A stretch of 64,000 nt of DNA from Lysobacter enzymogenes (lineage in GTDB: Bacteria > Pseudomonadota > Gammaproteobacteria > Xanthomonadales > Xanthomonadaceae), in contig NZ_FNOG01000001.1 in the NCBI RefSeq assembly GCF_900106525.1, positions 62,001-126,000 on the forward strand, in the 5' to 3' direction. Below, piece by piece: positions 49,366 to 53,868 of this stretch. A program made the translations under genes and the position numbers. Position 1 is the stretch's first letter; each line of letters starts with the position of its first letter. The notes beneath the pieces are model-generated. The model was not told where the DNA came from. It was given only the letters and a program-made list of their open reading frames with translations, and did not search any database.

Positions 49366-49396
49366 TAAAAATGGCGCCGCCCTCGCGGACGGCGCC
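49366..49396 (-). terminator. Terminator of the rtcB operon
   Basis: On the minus strand a 10-bp stem (49387-49396 with 49373-49382, one G-U), tetraloop GCGA and ATTTTTA tract lie 20 bases beyond the rtcB stop. A smaller 6-bp hairpin (49402-49417) abuts the stop codon. Confidence 0.88.
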
Positions 49397-49416
49397 GAAA
49401 CAACGCCTTGCGGCGT

Positions 49417-50637
49417 TCAACCTTTGATGCAGACCACCTGGCGCAAGGTGTGCACCACCTCGACCAGGTCGGACTGCGCCGCCATCACCGCTTCGATCGG
49501 CTTGTACGCCGCCGGCGACTCGTCGATCACCGCCGCGTCCTTGCGGCATTCCACATGCGCGGTGGCAGCGCGGTGGTCCTTCAAGGTGATGCTGCGGCGC
49601 GCCTCGGCCCGGCTCATCACCCGGCCGGCGCCGTGGCTGCAGCTGTGGAAGCTGTCGACATTGCCCTTGCCGCGCACGATGTAGCTGCGCGCGCCCATGC
49701 TGCCGGGGATGATGCCCAGCTCGCCCTCGCGCGCGCTGACCGCACCCTTGCGCGTGACCCACAGCGATTCGCCGAAATGTTCCTCGCGCTGCACGTAGTT
49801 GTGGTGGCAGTTGACCGCGGTCTTGTCGAGCTTGAACTTCGGCAGCTGGATGCGCATGGCATGCAGCACCCGCTCCATCATCGCTTCGCGGTTGTGGCGG
49901 GCGTAGTCCTGCGCCCAACCCACCGCCTCGACGTAGTCGTCGAACAAGGGCTCGCCCTCCAGCAGGAACGCGAGATCCTTGTCCGGCAGATGGAAGCCGA
50001 GCGTGCGCTTTTCCAGCTTCATCCGCGCCAGCTCGATGAAGTAGCTGCCGATCAGGTTGCCGGTGCCGCGCGAACCCGAGTGCAGCATCACCCACACCGC
50101 GCCGGCTTCGTCGAGGCAGACCTCGATGAAGTGGTTGCCGCCGCCGAGCGTGCCGATCTGGCGGTCGAGCTTGTCGGTGCGCAGCCGGCGGTGCTTGGCG
50201 TGGATCGCGTCCAGCCGCGTCGCCAGTCCCGATTTGGCCAGCCGGGTGGCGTGGCTGTCGGGCAGGCGCCGGTGCTCGCCGCCGCGGCCGTTGCCGACCG
50301 GGACGCAGTGCTCGATCGCCGAGCGCAGCTTGGCCAGGCTGTCGGGCAGGTCGCTCGCGCGAAGCGTGGTGCGCACCGCGGCCATGCCGCAGCCGATGTC
50401 GACGCCGACCGCGGCGGGAATGATCGCGCCGCGGGTCGGCACCACCGAGCCGACGGTCGCGCCCTTGCCCAGATGCACATCGGGCATGGCCGCGACCCAG
50501 GGCCCGACGTGGGGCAGGGCGGCGATGTTGCGCAGCTGGTGTTTGGCGCTTTCGTCGACCGGCACCCCGCGGATCCAGGCCTTGACCGGTGCCACGCCTT
50601 CGTCGGCGTGGAGCAGTTCGTAGTTTGAGGTACTCAT
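49417..50637 (-). CDS. rtcB: RNA-splicing ligase RtcB
   Basis: 406 residues from the ATG at 50637 (AAGGA upstream), near the 408 of E. coli RtcB. It joins RNA 2',3'-cyclic phosphate or 3'-phosphate ends to 5'-OH ends using GTP and Mn2+. Metal and catalytic residues are visible: D80 and C83 in GVDIGCGM, H170 in GGGNHF, H187 in MLHSGSRG, HH at 279-280 and the guanylylated His at 336 in SCSHGAGR, one position from E. coli His337. It is the last gene of a minus-strand unit with an unknown basic protein and slipin, preceded by two tRNA-like RNAs. No RtcA cyclase or RtcR activator is in the window. Confidence 0.96.
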   Translation of the reverse strand: MSTSNYELLHADEGVAPVKAWIRGVPVDESAKHQLRNIAALPHVGPWVAAMPDVHLGKGATVGSVVPTRGAIIPAAVGVDIGCGMAAVRTTLRASDLPDSLAKLRSAIEHCVPVGNGRGGEHRRLPDSHATRLAKSGLATRLDAIHAKHRRLRTDKLDRQIGTLGGGNHFIEVCLDEAGAVWVMLHSGSRGTGNLIGSYFIELARMKLEKRTLGFHLPDKDLAFLLEGEPLFDDYVEAVGWAQDYARHNREAMMERVLHAMRIQLPKFKLDKTAVNCHHNYVQREEHFGESLWVTRKGAVSAREGELGIIPGSMGARSYIVRGKGNVDSFHSCSHGAGRVMSRAEARRSITLKDHRAATAHVECRKDAAVIDESPAAYKPIEAVMAAQSDLVEVVHTLRQVVCIKG

Positions 50638-50650
50638 GATGGTTCAGTCC

Positions 50651-51517
50651 TTAATTAGGTGCGCCGGTGCGCCAGGGCGAACGCCGCTTGCGGCTGTTCG
50701 CGCGAGCGGCCGCGGCGAGCGCGCGCGGGTCGAACGGATCGGGCCCGTCGCCGTTGCGCAGCCGGTGGGCGGTCAGCTCGGCCTGGCTCAGCTGGCGTTT
50801 GCGGCGCGCGTAGACGCCGCAGCGGCCGTACAGGTTCCAGCGTTTGCTTTCGCATTCGCCGATCTGCGCATGCAGCACCGCATCGAACGCGAGCCCCGGC
50901 AAAACGACGCCGGACTTGCGCTTGGAGCGGCGCGGCTCGGGCACCGGCGCGAGTTCGATCCGGTACCAGATGCCGTCCAGGCGGTGCAGTTGCACATCGC
51001 GGTCGACGATGCGGACGCCTTCGCGCCAACCCGCTTGCCGCGCATGCACCGCAAGCCGGTGCTCGTCGCGTTTGCGTACGCGGCGAACGAACGCGGCCTC
51101 GTTGCGTATCAGGCAGCCGTTGCGCGGGTCCACATACAGATCGCAATAGCTCTCGGCCAGCGCGACCGCGCCGCGCCAGCGGCGGATGGCGTAGAGCTGG
51201 CCCTCGCTTTCGTACACGTCGACCTCGACGAAATCGCGCAGATGCTCATGGATGTGTTGCTGCACGGTGTTGCGTCGATCCACGTTCTTGCACAGTTCCG
51301 CATAGACCGCGTCCCAGCGCCTGCCGGCCTGTCGATCCAGCCAGCGTTGCAGCGGGCGCAGGTTTTCGTTGAGCCATTTGCGGCTCGTGTTGAGCCGATG
51401 GCGCATGCCTTCGTGGGAAGGGCGTTCGTCGGGGTCGCGCAGTTCGCGCCCCGGCTTGGCCCAGCCGGCGCCGGTGCGCGGCCGTTCCACGATCACTTTG
51501 TACATATCGCTTCGCAT
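50651..51517 (-). CDS. Basic uncharacterised protein between slipin and rtcB
   Basis: 288 residues from the ATG at 51517 (MRSDMYKVIVERPRTGAGW); the ATG at 51505 is an equally plausible start. Its stop is 13 bases before the rtcB start, so the two are cotranscribed. Not recognised as a named family. The N-terminal half is rich in Arg/Lys/His with 'RKWLNENLRPLQRWLDRQAGRRWDAVYAELCKNVDRR', and the middle has 'LYVDPRNGCLIRNEAAFVRRVRKRDEHRL'. It ends with a 'GLAFDAVLHAQIGECESKRWNLYGRCGVYARRKRQLSQAEL' block and a basic tail. The charge and operon position suggest RNA binding as a partner of RtcB. This is inference. Confidence 0.82.
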   Translation of the reverse strand: MRSDMYKVIVERPRTGAGWAKPGRELRDPDERPSHEGMRHRLNTSRKWLNENLRPLQRWLDRQAGRRWDAVYAELCKNVDRRNTVQQHIHEHLRDFVEVDVYESEGQLYAIRRWRGAVALAESYCDLYVDPRNGCLIRNEAAFVRRVRKRDEHRLAVHARQAGWREGVRIVDRDVQLHRLDGIWYRIELAPVPEPRRSKRKSGVVLPGLAFDAVLHAQIGECESKRWNLYGRCGVYARRKRQLSQAELTAHRLRNGDGPDPFDPRALAAAARANSRKRRSPWRTGAPN

Positions 51518-51666
51518 AAGGATTCGTATCCGATAGTCGGCCGCGCGCGCGGCATGCGAGCCGCGCACGGGGCCGTTCACCGCCCCGTCGAGGGCGGCGT
51601 TCGCGTTGGCTTTGGGCTGTCGCGCTATCGGAACCCGGGCGGCGCGATGCCGCCCGGTCCTGCGTT

Positions 51667-52797
51667 TCAGCCGTGGCCCTTGAGGCTGACGAGTTGCTTC
51701 ATGACTCCCTCCAGACCGCCGAAGACGGTCAGCTTGTCGATCTTTTCGGTGATTTTTTCCAAGGCCTCGAGTTCCTTCAGGCGCATCAGCACCGGACTTT
51801 CCTCGATCAGCTTGGCGGTGTTGAGCAGGCTGCGGGTCGCGTTGGCTTCCTCGCGGCGGCGGATCACGTTGGCCTGCGCGCTCTTCTCCGCCTGCACCAC
51901 GGCGTTGAGGATGTCCTTCATCTCGCCCGGCAGGATCACGTCCTTGACGCCGACGCCGAGCACCTCCACGCCGATCCCGGCGCAGGCGCCGCGCGCGGCG
52001 GCGAGGATGTCGGCATCGAGCGAGGCCTTGTCGCCGAGCAGTTCGTCCAGGGTCTTGGACGACACCGCCTTGCGCAGGCCGTACTGCAGCTCGCGATAGA
52101 CATGCTCGGCGTACTTGGCCACGCGGGTGCGCGCAGCGACCGGGTCGGACACGCGCACGCCGGCGGCGAGGTTGACGCGCAAGGTGACCTTGTCGCGGGT
52201 CAGCAGTTCCTGGCCCGAGACCTCCACCGCCTGCACGCGCAGTTCCACGGTTTCTACCGCGACGTTCTTGCGCAGGTTCCAGAACGCATACGCGCCCGGC
52301 GCCAAGGTGCGCACGAAGGTGCCGTCGACGAACAGCAGGCCGGCCGATTCGCTCGGCACGACGCCGTGGGTGGCGACGCGGTCGAGCTGGGCGATCTGGC
52401 GCAGGCCGTCGGCGACTTCGCGCTCGATCGCCAGTCCAGGGCTCAGCGCCAGCGTACGCACCTCGATCTGCGCCAGGCCCTTCCAGTACAGGCGACGCAG
52501 ACCCGGCGCCAGCACTTCGGCGTAACGGCCGTTGCGCAGCACCAGGCCGACTTCATCGTTGCCGATGTCGGCGAGGACGAAGTGCTCGGACAGGCGCTTG
52601 CCGAAGCCGGCGATCAGCGCTTCGCTGTCGTTGCCGGCGTAGGCGCTGCTGCCGATGTCGTAGTGGCTGAGGCTCAGGCGGTTGCGCAGGTCGCGCAAGC
52701 GGTGCACGCCGGGGCCGAGCACGCGCTCGACGCGACGGTCGCGGTAAACCAGGACGCGCTCGGCATCGCCGACCACGACCTTCTTCATCCAGAACAT
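51667..52797 (-). CDS. Slipin/SPFH (band 7) family protein
   Basis: 376 residues from the ATG at 52797 (AAGGAG upstream). The N-terminal part repeats a 'VVVGDAERVLVYRDRRVERVLGPGVHRL' unit twice (also 'NDEVGLVLRNGRYAEVLAPGLRRLYW'). An SPFH core follows (VELRVQAVEVSGQELLTRDKVTLRVNLAAGVRVSDP..) and then a coiled-coil tail (EVLGVGVKDVILPGEMKDILNAVVQAEKSAQANVIRRREEANATRSLL). It lacks an obvious N-terminal membrane hairpin, so membrane attachment may be peripheral. Slipins are repeatedly found beside rtcB in bacteria. This one heads the coding part of the operon, with 420 bases of structured leader and tRNA-like RNAs upstream. Confidence 0.9.
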   Translation of the reverse strand: MFWMKKVVVGDAERVLVYRDRRVERVLGPGVHRLRDLRNRLSLSHYDIGSSAYAGNDSEALIAGFGKRLSEHFVLADIGNDEVGLVLRNGRYAEVLAPGLRRLYWKGLAQIEVRTLALSPGLAIEREVADGLRQIAQLDRVATHGVVPSESAGLLFVDGTFVRTLAPGAYAFWNLRKNVAVETVELRVQAVEVSGQELLTRDKVTLRVNLAAGVRVSDPVAARTRVAKYAEHVYRELQYGLRKAVSSKTLDELLGDKASLDADILAAARGACAGIGVEVLGVGVKDVILPGEMKDILNAVVQAEKSAQANVIRRREEANATRSLLNTAKLIEESPVLMRLKELEALEKITEKIDKLTVFGGLEGVMKQLVSLKGHG

Positions 52798-53220
52798 GGC
52801 TTTCTCCTTGAGGTTCCGGTGTGGTCCGATCCGTGGTGTGGGCCGATGCGACCGAATCGGAAGGTCGCGTCGAACGGTGGTCGCGTCGGCGACGCGAATG
52901 CAGTCGCTGCGTGGCAGCTGACGGTGAAGCGCGGCGCGCAAGCGCGCCATCGCGGAATAGGTGGGAAACGCCCCTGGCGCCGGCATCGCGGACCGCATGC
53001 GCGGCGGGCGCGGAACCCTCGCCGCCGGCTTCGCCACGTCCGTTGTGGTCGATGCCGCGCCACGCGGTGGCCTCGCCCGCCGGGCATGGAGCCGGCGGTG
53101 TCGCCGCTGCGTCGCTTCGTAGCGAACCCCATGCCGGCGGCGCACTTCGAAACGCCGCGCGGGGCGTTTCCCTGTTCGGAACCTTCGTTCCGATTTGCAA
53201 CGACTGTCGTGAAAGGACAG
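52798..53220 (-). other. Structured leader between the tRNA-like RNAs and slipin
   Basis: 423 bases without a credible gene. On the minus strand, directly after the tRNA-like RNA, come a 6-bp hairpin (ACTGTC/GACAGT), a TCGGAAC/GTTCCGA hairpin (53176-53193) and a GAAACGCC/GGCGTTTC hairpin (53149-53170). Longer GC dyads follow (e.g. gccggcatgg / ccatgcccggc). The succession suggests processing or attenuation of the transcript before slipin. No sigma-54 type promoter (GG-N10-GC) was found by eye. Confidence 0.45.
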
Positions 53221-53287
53221 TGGATAGCGGGAATCGAACCCGCGACAACAGCATCTTTTGCTGCGCTCTACCGACTGAGCTATATCC
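53221..53287 (-). ncRNA. tRNA-like RNA A (67 nt), not a canonical tRNA
   Basis: Read on the minus strand it has a 5-bp acceptor-like stem (53283-53287 with 53222-53226), TA linker, perfect 4-bp D stem (GCTC/GAGC) with loop AGTCGGTA, a 5-bp anticodon-like stem (CAGCA/TGCTG) with only a 5-nt loop AAAGA, a 5-nt variable region, and a perfect T arm (GCGGG-TTCGATT-CCCGC). The discriminator base is A. No CCA tail is encoded. A 5-nt loop cannot present an anticodon normally and the acceptor stem is two pairs short, so decoding is unlikely. The intact D and T arms mean the tRNA fold is under selection or recently lost. Confidence 0.72.
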
Positions 53288-53290
53288 GAG

Positions 53291-53355
53291 GGAAGGACCG
53301 GAATCGAACCGGCGACCCGCGCATACAACGCTGCTCTACCTCTGAGCTACCTTCC
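53291..53355 (-). ncRNA. tRNA-like RNA B (65 nt), not a canonical tRNA
   Basis: On the minus strand it has a 6-bp acceptor-like stem (53350-53355 with 53291-53296), TA linker, 4-bp D stem GCTC/GAGC with loop AGAGGTA, an anticodon-like arm of only 3 bp (GCG/CGC) with the 7-nt loop TTGTATG, variable region GGGTC and T arm GCCGG-TTCGATT-CCGGT. The loop contains GTA where a Tyr anticodon would be, but the stem is two pairs short and the RNA is shorter than a normal tRNA. It ends just 3 nt before tRNA-like RNA A begins, so the two are one tandem transcript ahead of slipin and rtcB. Confidence 0.72.
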
Positions 53356-53667
53356 CGGTACAGAGCCCCTCCACGCACCGCGGCATACGCCACGGCAAGG
53401 CCGCGCGCACCGGGCCGGTCGGAAACCGGCGCCGTTGCGGTGCGTTTCATCGGGTGCTGCCAATCGCCGCCCGTCTCCGGGCGGCAATTCGTTCGGGCGC
53501 GAACGCCCATGTCGTTGGTTTCGCGCACGCGCCGCCCGCGCCGAAGCACCGGGGCACAGCGTGGTTCACGCCTCGACGGCTTATCCCCTTCGTCTCGGAT
53601 GCTTCGGGGGTGTGCGCGAATGCTTGTTTTGCAGCGGTTTTCCAGCAGATCCTTTGCCGACGCGCGA
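53356..53667. other. Intergenic region upstream of the tRNA-like RNAs
   Basis: About 310 bases with no convincing gene. GC dyads are present (gccggtcggaaaccggc near 53414, a gccgcccgtctccgggcggc hairpin near 53466). The promoter of the tRNA-like/slipin/rtcB transcript must lie here, but no sigma-70 or sigma-54 box could be assigned with confidence. Confidence 0.35.
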
Positions 53668-53703
53668 AACGAAAACGCCCCCGGAGTGCGAGTCCGAGGG
53701 CGT
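53668..53703 (-). terminator. Terminator of the small 38-codon gene
   Basis: On the minus strand an 11-bp stem with one mismatch (53693-53703 with 53675-53685) is followed by TTTTCGTTTC. A second perfect 10-bp hairpin (53714-53723 with 53729-53738) lies between it and the ORF stop. Confidence 0.82.
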
Positions 53704-53751
53704 CTGCTTCCTCGGAAGATCGGGGCGACCGATCTTCCGTGGAGGGGAAGA

Positions 53752-53868
53752 TCAGTGCGGGCTGTGCAGGCTTTCGTCGCGACCGCGCGTCATCGGCGCG
53801 CACGCGAACGACGCGGGGCAGTAATGCCCTTGCACGTCTTTCTTGGCGGTTGCGATGTCGTTGCGCAT
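53752..53868 (-). CDS. Candidate small protein (38 residues)
   Basis: MRNDIATAKKDVQGHYCPASF then ACAPMTRGRDESLHSPH. The frame sits in a self-contained unit: a well-spaced promoter ~40 bases upstream and hairpins plus a T-tract terminator directly after the stop. The N-terminal half is charged and helical. The C-terminal half has two Cys eight residues apart and no membrane segment. No Shine-Dalgarno precedes the ATG, so either translation is weak or the transcript (~200 nt) acts as a small RNA. No family is recognised; a precursor peptide is conceivable but unsupported. Confidence 0.45.
   Translation of the reverse strand: MRNDIATAKKDVQGHYCPASFACAPMTRGRDESLHSPH

Follow-up and report, generated by a model that had tools for sequence, protein, structure and literature searches.

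The window analysed here is a stretch of 64,000 nucleotides (nt) of the Lysobacter enzymogenes genome (contig NZ_FNOG01000001.1, positions 62,001 to 126,000), whose minus strand carries, in this order, a large structured RNA, a slipin gene, a gene for a protein of 288 amino acids (aa), here called X288, and a gene for the RNA ligase RtcB. The RNA, which is conserved, about 540 nt long (53500-52963 in the window) and located directly 5' of slipin, is composed of a 5' domain, two tandem tRNA-like elements (B and A), a stem-loop (H3) that resembles an anticodon arm on its own, a hairpin (H4) and a 3' domain whose closing helix spans about 200 nt. There is strong evidence that this body is one conserved RNA family, and its anticodon-like loops raise the possibility that it is a bait for nucleases that cut anticodons. 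The elements of the RNA and the genes that follow it are:

53463-53488, minus strand: hairpin P0 (ATTGCCG...CGGCGAT), the 5' end of the RNA, which covaries among 77 aligned loci.
53382-53437, minus strand: core of the 5' domain, a covarying hairpin and a near-invariant hairpin of 11 base pairs (bp) inside helices P1 and P2, from the alignment and pair counts of 77 loci.
53290-53356, minus strand: tRNA-like element B, in which the acceptor has 7 bp, the D and T arms are intact and the anticodon arm is short (ARAGORN, Rfam, fold).
53222-53287, minus strand: tRNA-like element A, in which the acceptor has 5 bp, the D and T arms are intact and the anticodon loop is hypervariable (ARAGORN, Rfam, fold, covariation).
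53203-53221, minus strand: stem-loop H3, whose 7-nt loop CUUUCAC equals the anticodon loop of the host tRNA-Glu(UUC) (loop comparison).
53178-53191, minus strand: covarying hairpin H4, with a GNRA-type loop (GCAA, GAAA) in many relatives and GAAG in the window.
53161-53172, minus strand: long-range helix, 5' strand, GGGAAACGCCCC (pairing counts).
52963-52974, minus strand: long-range helix, 3' strand, GGGGCGTTTCCC (pairing counts).
52826-52860, minus strand: conserved hairpin-like stretch just 5' of the slipin ribosome-binding site, from a leader alignment of 46 loci in which covariation was not counted.
51667-52797, minus strand: slipin (SPFH/Band 7) with a beta-rich N-terminal part (Pfam Band_7, 4.9e-28; model and fold search).
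50651-51517, minus strand: X288, a basic, optional protein of 288 aa with no assigned family (open reading frame; present in 13 of 80 loci).
49417-50637, minus strand: RtcB RNA ligase (Pfam RtcB, 9.5e-126).

Conservation was assessed with one genome per species. In a family sample of 149 genomes, 48 (the window included) had a slipin match with an E-value below 1e-70, and 46 of these 48 loci had at least 650 nt upstream of the gene; ARAGORN called a sense-strand tRNA-like element there in 40 of the 46. Among the other six, A was readable in L075, L095, L096 and L101, partly readable in L077 and not readable in L107, the locus with the most distant slipin. By scanning species genomes with a slipin profile, we obtained 545 relatives, and the counts below use the best 80 of the 545, which bear mostly Xanthomonadales genus names, with a few binned genomes under vaguer labels. 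A covariance model (R1) was built from A and the two hairpins after it, and A was counted if the match was full-length and above 80 bits; most ordinary tRNAs score below about 75 bits with this model. Over 914,701 bases (the window and the 80 loci), R1 found A in the window and at 76 of the 80 loci, as well as 18 neighbouring B elements, a degenerate A copy at L181 (50.9 bits) and only one unrelated tRNA; the four loci without a counted A are three cut by contig ends, and L181. A tRNA-like RNA is thus conserved beside slipin and rtcB, as had been proposed from the sequence alone. The A alignment (A3) comprises 97 rows, all of which served for covariation from A to H4, while the loop counts use 77 loci (the 76 and the window) after removal of the 18 B elements, L181 and L212, an ordinary tRNA.

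The alignment of 77 upstream regions gave P0, the nested helices P1 and P2, a covarying hairpin, the near-invariant hairpin and then B with a covarying acceptor. In 76 of 77 loci, but in 3 of 77 shuffled controls, the long-range helix that closes the 3' domain has at least 9 of 10 positions paired; it carries several compensated changes. From A to H4, 98.2% of the cells in an alignment fitted to this structure are paired and 24 of 29 pairs have changed on both sides; none of 500 shuffles reached any of five measures, and the covariation score was 0.404 versus at most 0.047 for slid partners. A separate pair analysis of the leaders, covering H4 and compensatory changes, took in 37 of 46 leaders. 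The 538-nt RNA of the window has a folding z of −5.05, and none of 100 shuffles was as low. The compensatory changes on which the sequence-only reading had staked its proposal are therefore abundant. That reading had described just two RNAs of 65-67 nt followed by a structured leader; the leader is indeed structured, but it is not separate, A and B being domains of the same RNA of about 540 nt, which begins some 130 nt further upstream than had been supposed. The near-invariant 11-bp hairpin of the 5' domain (about 53382-53411) has G-U pairs. That the RNA ends in an intrinsic terminator is doubtful, as a T-rich stretch (at least 6 T in 12 nt) follows the long-range helix in only 20 of 76 loci.

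A search of Rfam with 52700-53800 (E up to 10) returned only tRNA at gathering score and no match to GOLLD, ROOL or OLE, which are, as far as the accessible text of PMC12286853 goes, likewise large conserved structured RNAs of bacteria. No publication describing the slipin-leader RNA was found in a literature search whose coverage was partial, most subscription papers being outside its reach.

Both tRNA-like elements were called by ARAGORN and by the Rfam model RF00005 on the minus strand, B at 53288/53289-53356 (50.7 bits) and A at 53219/53222-53287/53289 (46 bits); both exceed the gathering score of 29, and their D, anticodon and T arms follow one another as in a tRNA. Two tandem tRNA-like RNAs with intact D and T arms, as first described, are thus present, and they are the two lowest of the 51 tRNA-model matches in the genome. 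The stem lengths first ascribed to them have to be revised: B folds with a 7-bp acceptor and an anticodon arm of 4 bp and a 5-nt loop, and A with a 5-bp acceptor and an anticodon arm of 6 bp and a 5-nt loop. A lacks the set of features expected of a canonical tRNA (a conserved anticodon, a 7-nt loop and a 7-bp acceptor), whereas the acceptor of B does have 7 bp. In relatives, the anticodon arm of B is often short and capped by a tetraloop-like turn, yet it is variable too. The initial observation that no CCA is encoded holds for the window, but a few relatives have an ACCA in place.

Within A, it is the anticodon triplet that is hypervariable, though still of tRNA type. Among the 77 loci, entropy is 0-0.34 bits in the D- and T-stem columns and 1.58-1.95 bits in the triplet columns. 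The loop has 7 nt in 66 loci and another length in 11, within a range of 4-8 nt; the 66 seven-base loops display 29 distinct triplets, with U33 kept in 47, A37 in 56 and a purine at position 37 in 60. We compared these loops with those of 43 distinct host tRNAs. Distinct A loops differ from host loops at a mean of 1.33 positions, against 1.66 after shuffling by position (0 of 1000 shuffles), and 15 of all 66 loops match a host loop exactly (null expectation 7.5, P 0.002). In 61 of the 77 loci, H3 consists of a stem of 5 bp and a loop of 7 nt, and in 38 of these the loop is identical to a host tRNA anticodon loop (21 Asp, 12 Glu and 5 Tyr); among distinct H3 loops, 3 of 21 are exact (P 2e-5, or P 0.004 given the leading CU). 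The triplet also changes rapidly between close species: in 13 disjoint pairs (3 of 16 were dropped because a loop was not of 7 nt), it differs at 16 of 39 sites (0.41), versus 0.11 for fourfold sites of slipin and 0.14 for spacer sites.

As for the genes, slipin, the basic protein and RtcB follow one another as the sequence-only reading had listed them, on the evidence of open reading frames and Pfam. Slipin has both a Band 7 domain and a stomatin fold, and its model partly aligns with the major vault protein; its closest named relative among the best 80 of 545 is from Lysobacter sp. yr284 (90% identity). The RtcB domain is full-length (420.9 bits, residues 34-406), and in 77 of 80 loci the RtcB gene starts at a distance of 42-1037 nt downstream of slipin. 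X288 is present in the window as predicted but is an optional member, found in 13 of the 80 loci; it matched nothing in Pfam, PADLOC or PHROG and nothing convincingly in the PDB, and its predicted model (predicted local distance difference test 74.5) gave no usable result in a fold search. None of the PADLOC models matched slipin, X288 or RtcB, and no slipin relative was found in the phage records searched.

The RNA extends beyond the family. In an order-wide sample of 299 genomes, R1 matches above 80 bits occur in three other families as well. In a class-wide sample of 274 genomes, slipin was found in 14 others, 12 of which have R1 upstream on the same strand, and in a phylum-wide sample of 398 genomes it was found in 23; 17 loci of these were examined, one of them from an order genome already covered, and 16 have R1 upstream, the 17th having about 100 nt of upstream sequence. 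At the class- and phylum-level loci, R1 scores 46-89 bits and overlaps ordinary tRNAs, and several of the ARAGORN calls there have abnormal anticodon loops. The background includes a match of 81.7 bits (L227:5382-5505, genome G010) that ARAGORN calls tRNA-Phe and whose 8 kb match neither slipin nor RtcB, and matches of 74.6 and 71.2 bits (L236 and L237), also without slipin. Because R1 bits alone cannot separate tRNA-like elements from tRNAs in distant genomes, place and strand relative to slipin were used there. RtcB lies on the opposite side of the tRNA-like region in L259, L262 and L283, and upstream of slipin in L270, where no R1 match was found. In L262 (1-3876), the end of an RtcB gene is followed by slipin, which lies within an array of 13 tRNA genes; this arrangement suggests that slipin/RtcB loci are linked with tRNA arrays. 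In Escherichia coli (L291:4548-6787) and Citrobacter (L294:3550-5781), slipin and a gene for a nucleotidyltransferase domain follow an RtcR-type sigma54 site and a leader in which a T arm stands alone; 1624 of the 5426 complete genomes of E. coli contain near copies of the E. coli locus.

We propose, with about even chances of being right and from sequence comparison, that this RNA would be a bait, acting as decoy or as sensor, for nucleases that cut anticodons and leave breaks which RtcB then reseals. As the leader of slipin-(X288)-rtcB, it would display up to three imitations of an anticodon arm (B, A and H3) beside near-invariant D and T arms; the displayed loops would attract tRNA anticodon nucleases of phage, colicin-like or toxin-antitoxin origin, and the bait would compete for the nuclease or, once cut, alter the leader and report the damage. 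RtcB would reseal the cut tRNAs and perhaps the cut bait as well, slipin would supply a scaffold, and turnover of the anticodons would track turnover of the local nucleases. Constant D and T arms, a mostly kept U33 and A37 and a changing triplet fit such a bait. Bacterial RtcB joins 2',3'-cyclic-phosphate (or 3'-phosphate) ends to 5'-OH ends, and many anticodon nucleases leave ends that RtcB can join. Phages carry decoy tRNAs, copies of tRNAs that serve as bait against anticodon nucleases; those are phage-borne tRNAs, in contrast to the chromosomal leader RNA found here beside a ligase. For the Y RNAs of rtc operons, it has been suggested that the tRNA-like domain may competitively inhibit an anticodon nuclease (accessible text of Hughes et al., PMC7790460).

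Two other systems share part of this arrangement. In the rtc locus of Pseudomonas aeruginosa with PaFlo8, an SPFH gene is embedded with RtcA, RtcB and RtcR, but the RtcB passage describes no RNA and the word "tRNA" is absent from the accessible part of the paper (PMC13086221). In Anabaena, TrcR represses a tRNA operon and rtcB, and a slipin gene is among those raised in the trcR mutant; the 26 tRNA genes are, however, on a megaplasmid, rtcB and slipin lie elsewhere, and a tandem tRNA-like leader is not described in the accessible part of that paper (PMC10272220).

Several observations weigh against a bait. For YrlA, the accessible text of Hughes et al. (PMC7790460) reports no fragments, so that it was no substrate there. 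In the clade of the window (the window and L138-L141), the A loops have only 4-6 nt, which weakens the case for A of this genome. Among distinct A loops, 7 of 48 are identical to a host loop, which falls short of significance (P 0.12), and H3 is not of the 5-bp/7-nt form in 16 of 77 loci, being absent in 7 of those. The triplet changes only about 1.7-fold faster than three pooled unpaired regions of the RNA (16/39 versus 62/265, P 0.018; 36/90, P 0.002, with the B loop added), namely the P0 loop (0.275), the loop of the 5' hairpin (0.236) and the linker (0.221). Outside this pool, rates are 0.093 in the junction, 0.256 in the loop of the invariant hairpin, 0.266 in the H3 loop and 0.135 in the H4 loop and, within A, 0.116 in the D loop, 0.172 in the variable region and 0.044 in the T loop. 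So small an excess indicates that relaxed constraint explains part of the triplet variation; another part may be due to selection. Partners also vary. Slipin with upstream R1 occurs without an RtcB match in the fetched stretches of G288, G226, G230, G184 and G373, and the RNA and slipin occur without one within the 5-kb flanks of L156, L171 and L178, and likewise in L082. Slipin, rather than RtcB, is thus the most constant partner of the large RNA, while related slipins at L107, L260 and L270 lack the RNA.

A bolder version, which we consider rather unlikely, is that the RNA belongs to a new bacterial RNA class that accompanies slipin across Pseudomonadota, a chromosomal anticodon display whose loops are exchanged under selection so as to match the tRNA-cutting toxins that each lineage encounters; it would act as a resettable fuse that is cut instead of tRNAs and then rejoined by RtcB within an assembly of slipin. 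About as unlikely in our view is a cis-regulatory leader without any nuclease, on which RNase P or Z, a tRNA-modifying enzyme, slipin or RtcB would bind and tune termination or translation of slipin-rtcB. The RNA lies on the same strand directly upstream of slipin, its long-range helix ends before slipin in 76 of 77 loci, a conserved stretch precedes the ribosome-binding site, and the related slipin of E. coli and Citrobacter has an RtcR-type sigma54 promoter and the lone-T-arm leader; such a leader nevertheless leaves unexplained the triplet, variable yet tRNA-like, and the Asp, Glu and Tyr loops of H3, and the doubtful terminator speaks against it too. An unlikely reading is that the RNA is the scaffold of a slipin ribonucleoprotein, with slipin rings or cages that carry RNA and hold RtcB as cargo, for which vaults, which carry vault RNA, are the model. 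That A and B are ordinary tRNA genes, extra isoacceptors or decaying tRNAs is very improbable: they pass tRNA models and L262 lies in its array of 13 tRNAs, but one conserved body with 29 triplets, loops of 4-8 nt and short acceptors, whose stems are maintained by compensatory change across an order, is not what such genes would show.

Least credible, and largely refuted, is a divergent Y RNA (YrlA/YrlB) of an rtc operon, to which the sequence-only reading had compared the RNAs and which score, arm order and an in-genome control rule out: the YrlA model (RF02553) gives 25.5 bits over the T arm of B and the D arm of A, far under its gathering score of 69, whereas true YrlA copies of the same genome score 73.0 and 56.3 bits and have the T arm before the D arm, A and B each run from D through anticodon to T, and no rsr/Ro60 gene adjoins the slipin locus. 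These copies lie on the same contig about 320 kb away (L299, G000:C15:430500-440500), in an operon with rtcR, an rsr-like gene, rtcB and a putative rtcA, the last probable from its place. The rsr-like gene is the only TROVE match in the genome (C15:434953, 21.1 bits, below the cut-off of 23), and R1 gives only 22.5 bits at this locus. With TGGCACG-N4-TTGCA, which we take to be the consensus of sigma54 sites, the second, classical operon matches at 12 of 12 positions. No such site was found upstream at the slipin locus, where the best sequence matches at 9 of 12 positions in the window and at 6-10 across the 77 loci, and RtcR-sigma54 control of this locus is rejected. YrlA and YrlB (rtcR-rsr-yrlBA-rtcBA) and the slipin-leader RNA are alike in being noncoding RNAs that mimic tRNA beside RtcB, with conserved D- and T-arm sequences, but a Y RNA has about 114 nt, T before D and Rsr as partner, whereas the slipin-leader RNA has the normal tRNA order, in tandem, about 540 nt, slipin as partner and hypervariable anticodon loops. 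Between positions 53236 and 53345 of the window, where the YrlA match lies, the T arm of B followed by the D arm of A imitates the order of a Y RNA, and a similar sub-threshold match (27 bits) occurs in Photobacterium (L293); one may speculate that a Y RNA is the middle of such a tandem pair.

Two separate RNA-repair loci, each with its own kind of tRNA-mimicking RNA, can thus coexist in one genome. On which substrates bacterial RtcB acts physiologically, and what RtcB-linked slipins do, are to our knowledge open questions. A conserved RNA that imitates tRNA anticodon arms and has a fast-changing loop points to candidate RtcB substrates as well as to candidate attackers, and brings the question within reach of a test that uses one RNA and named nucleases. 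Should the RNA be a bait, an arms race would be written into a noncoding RNA.

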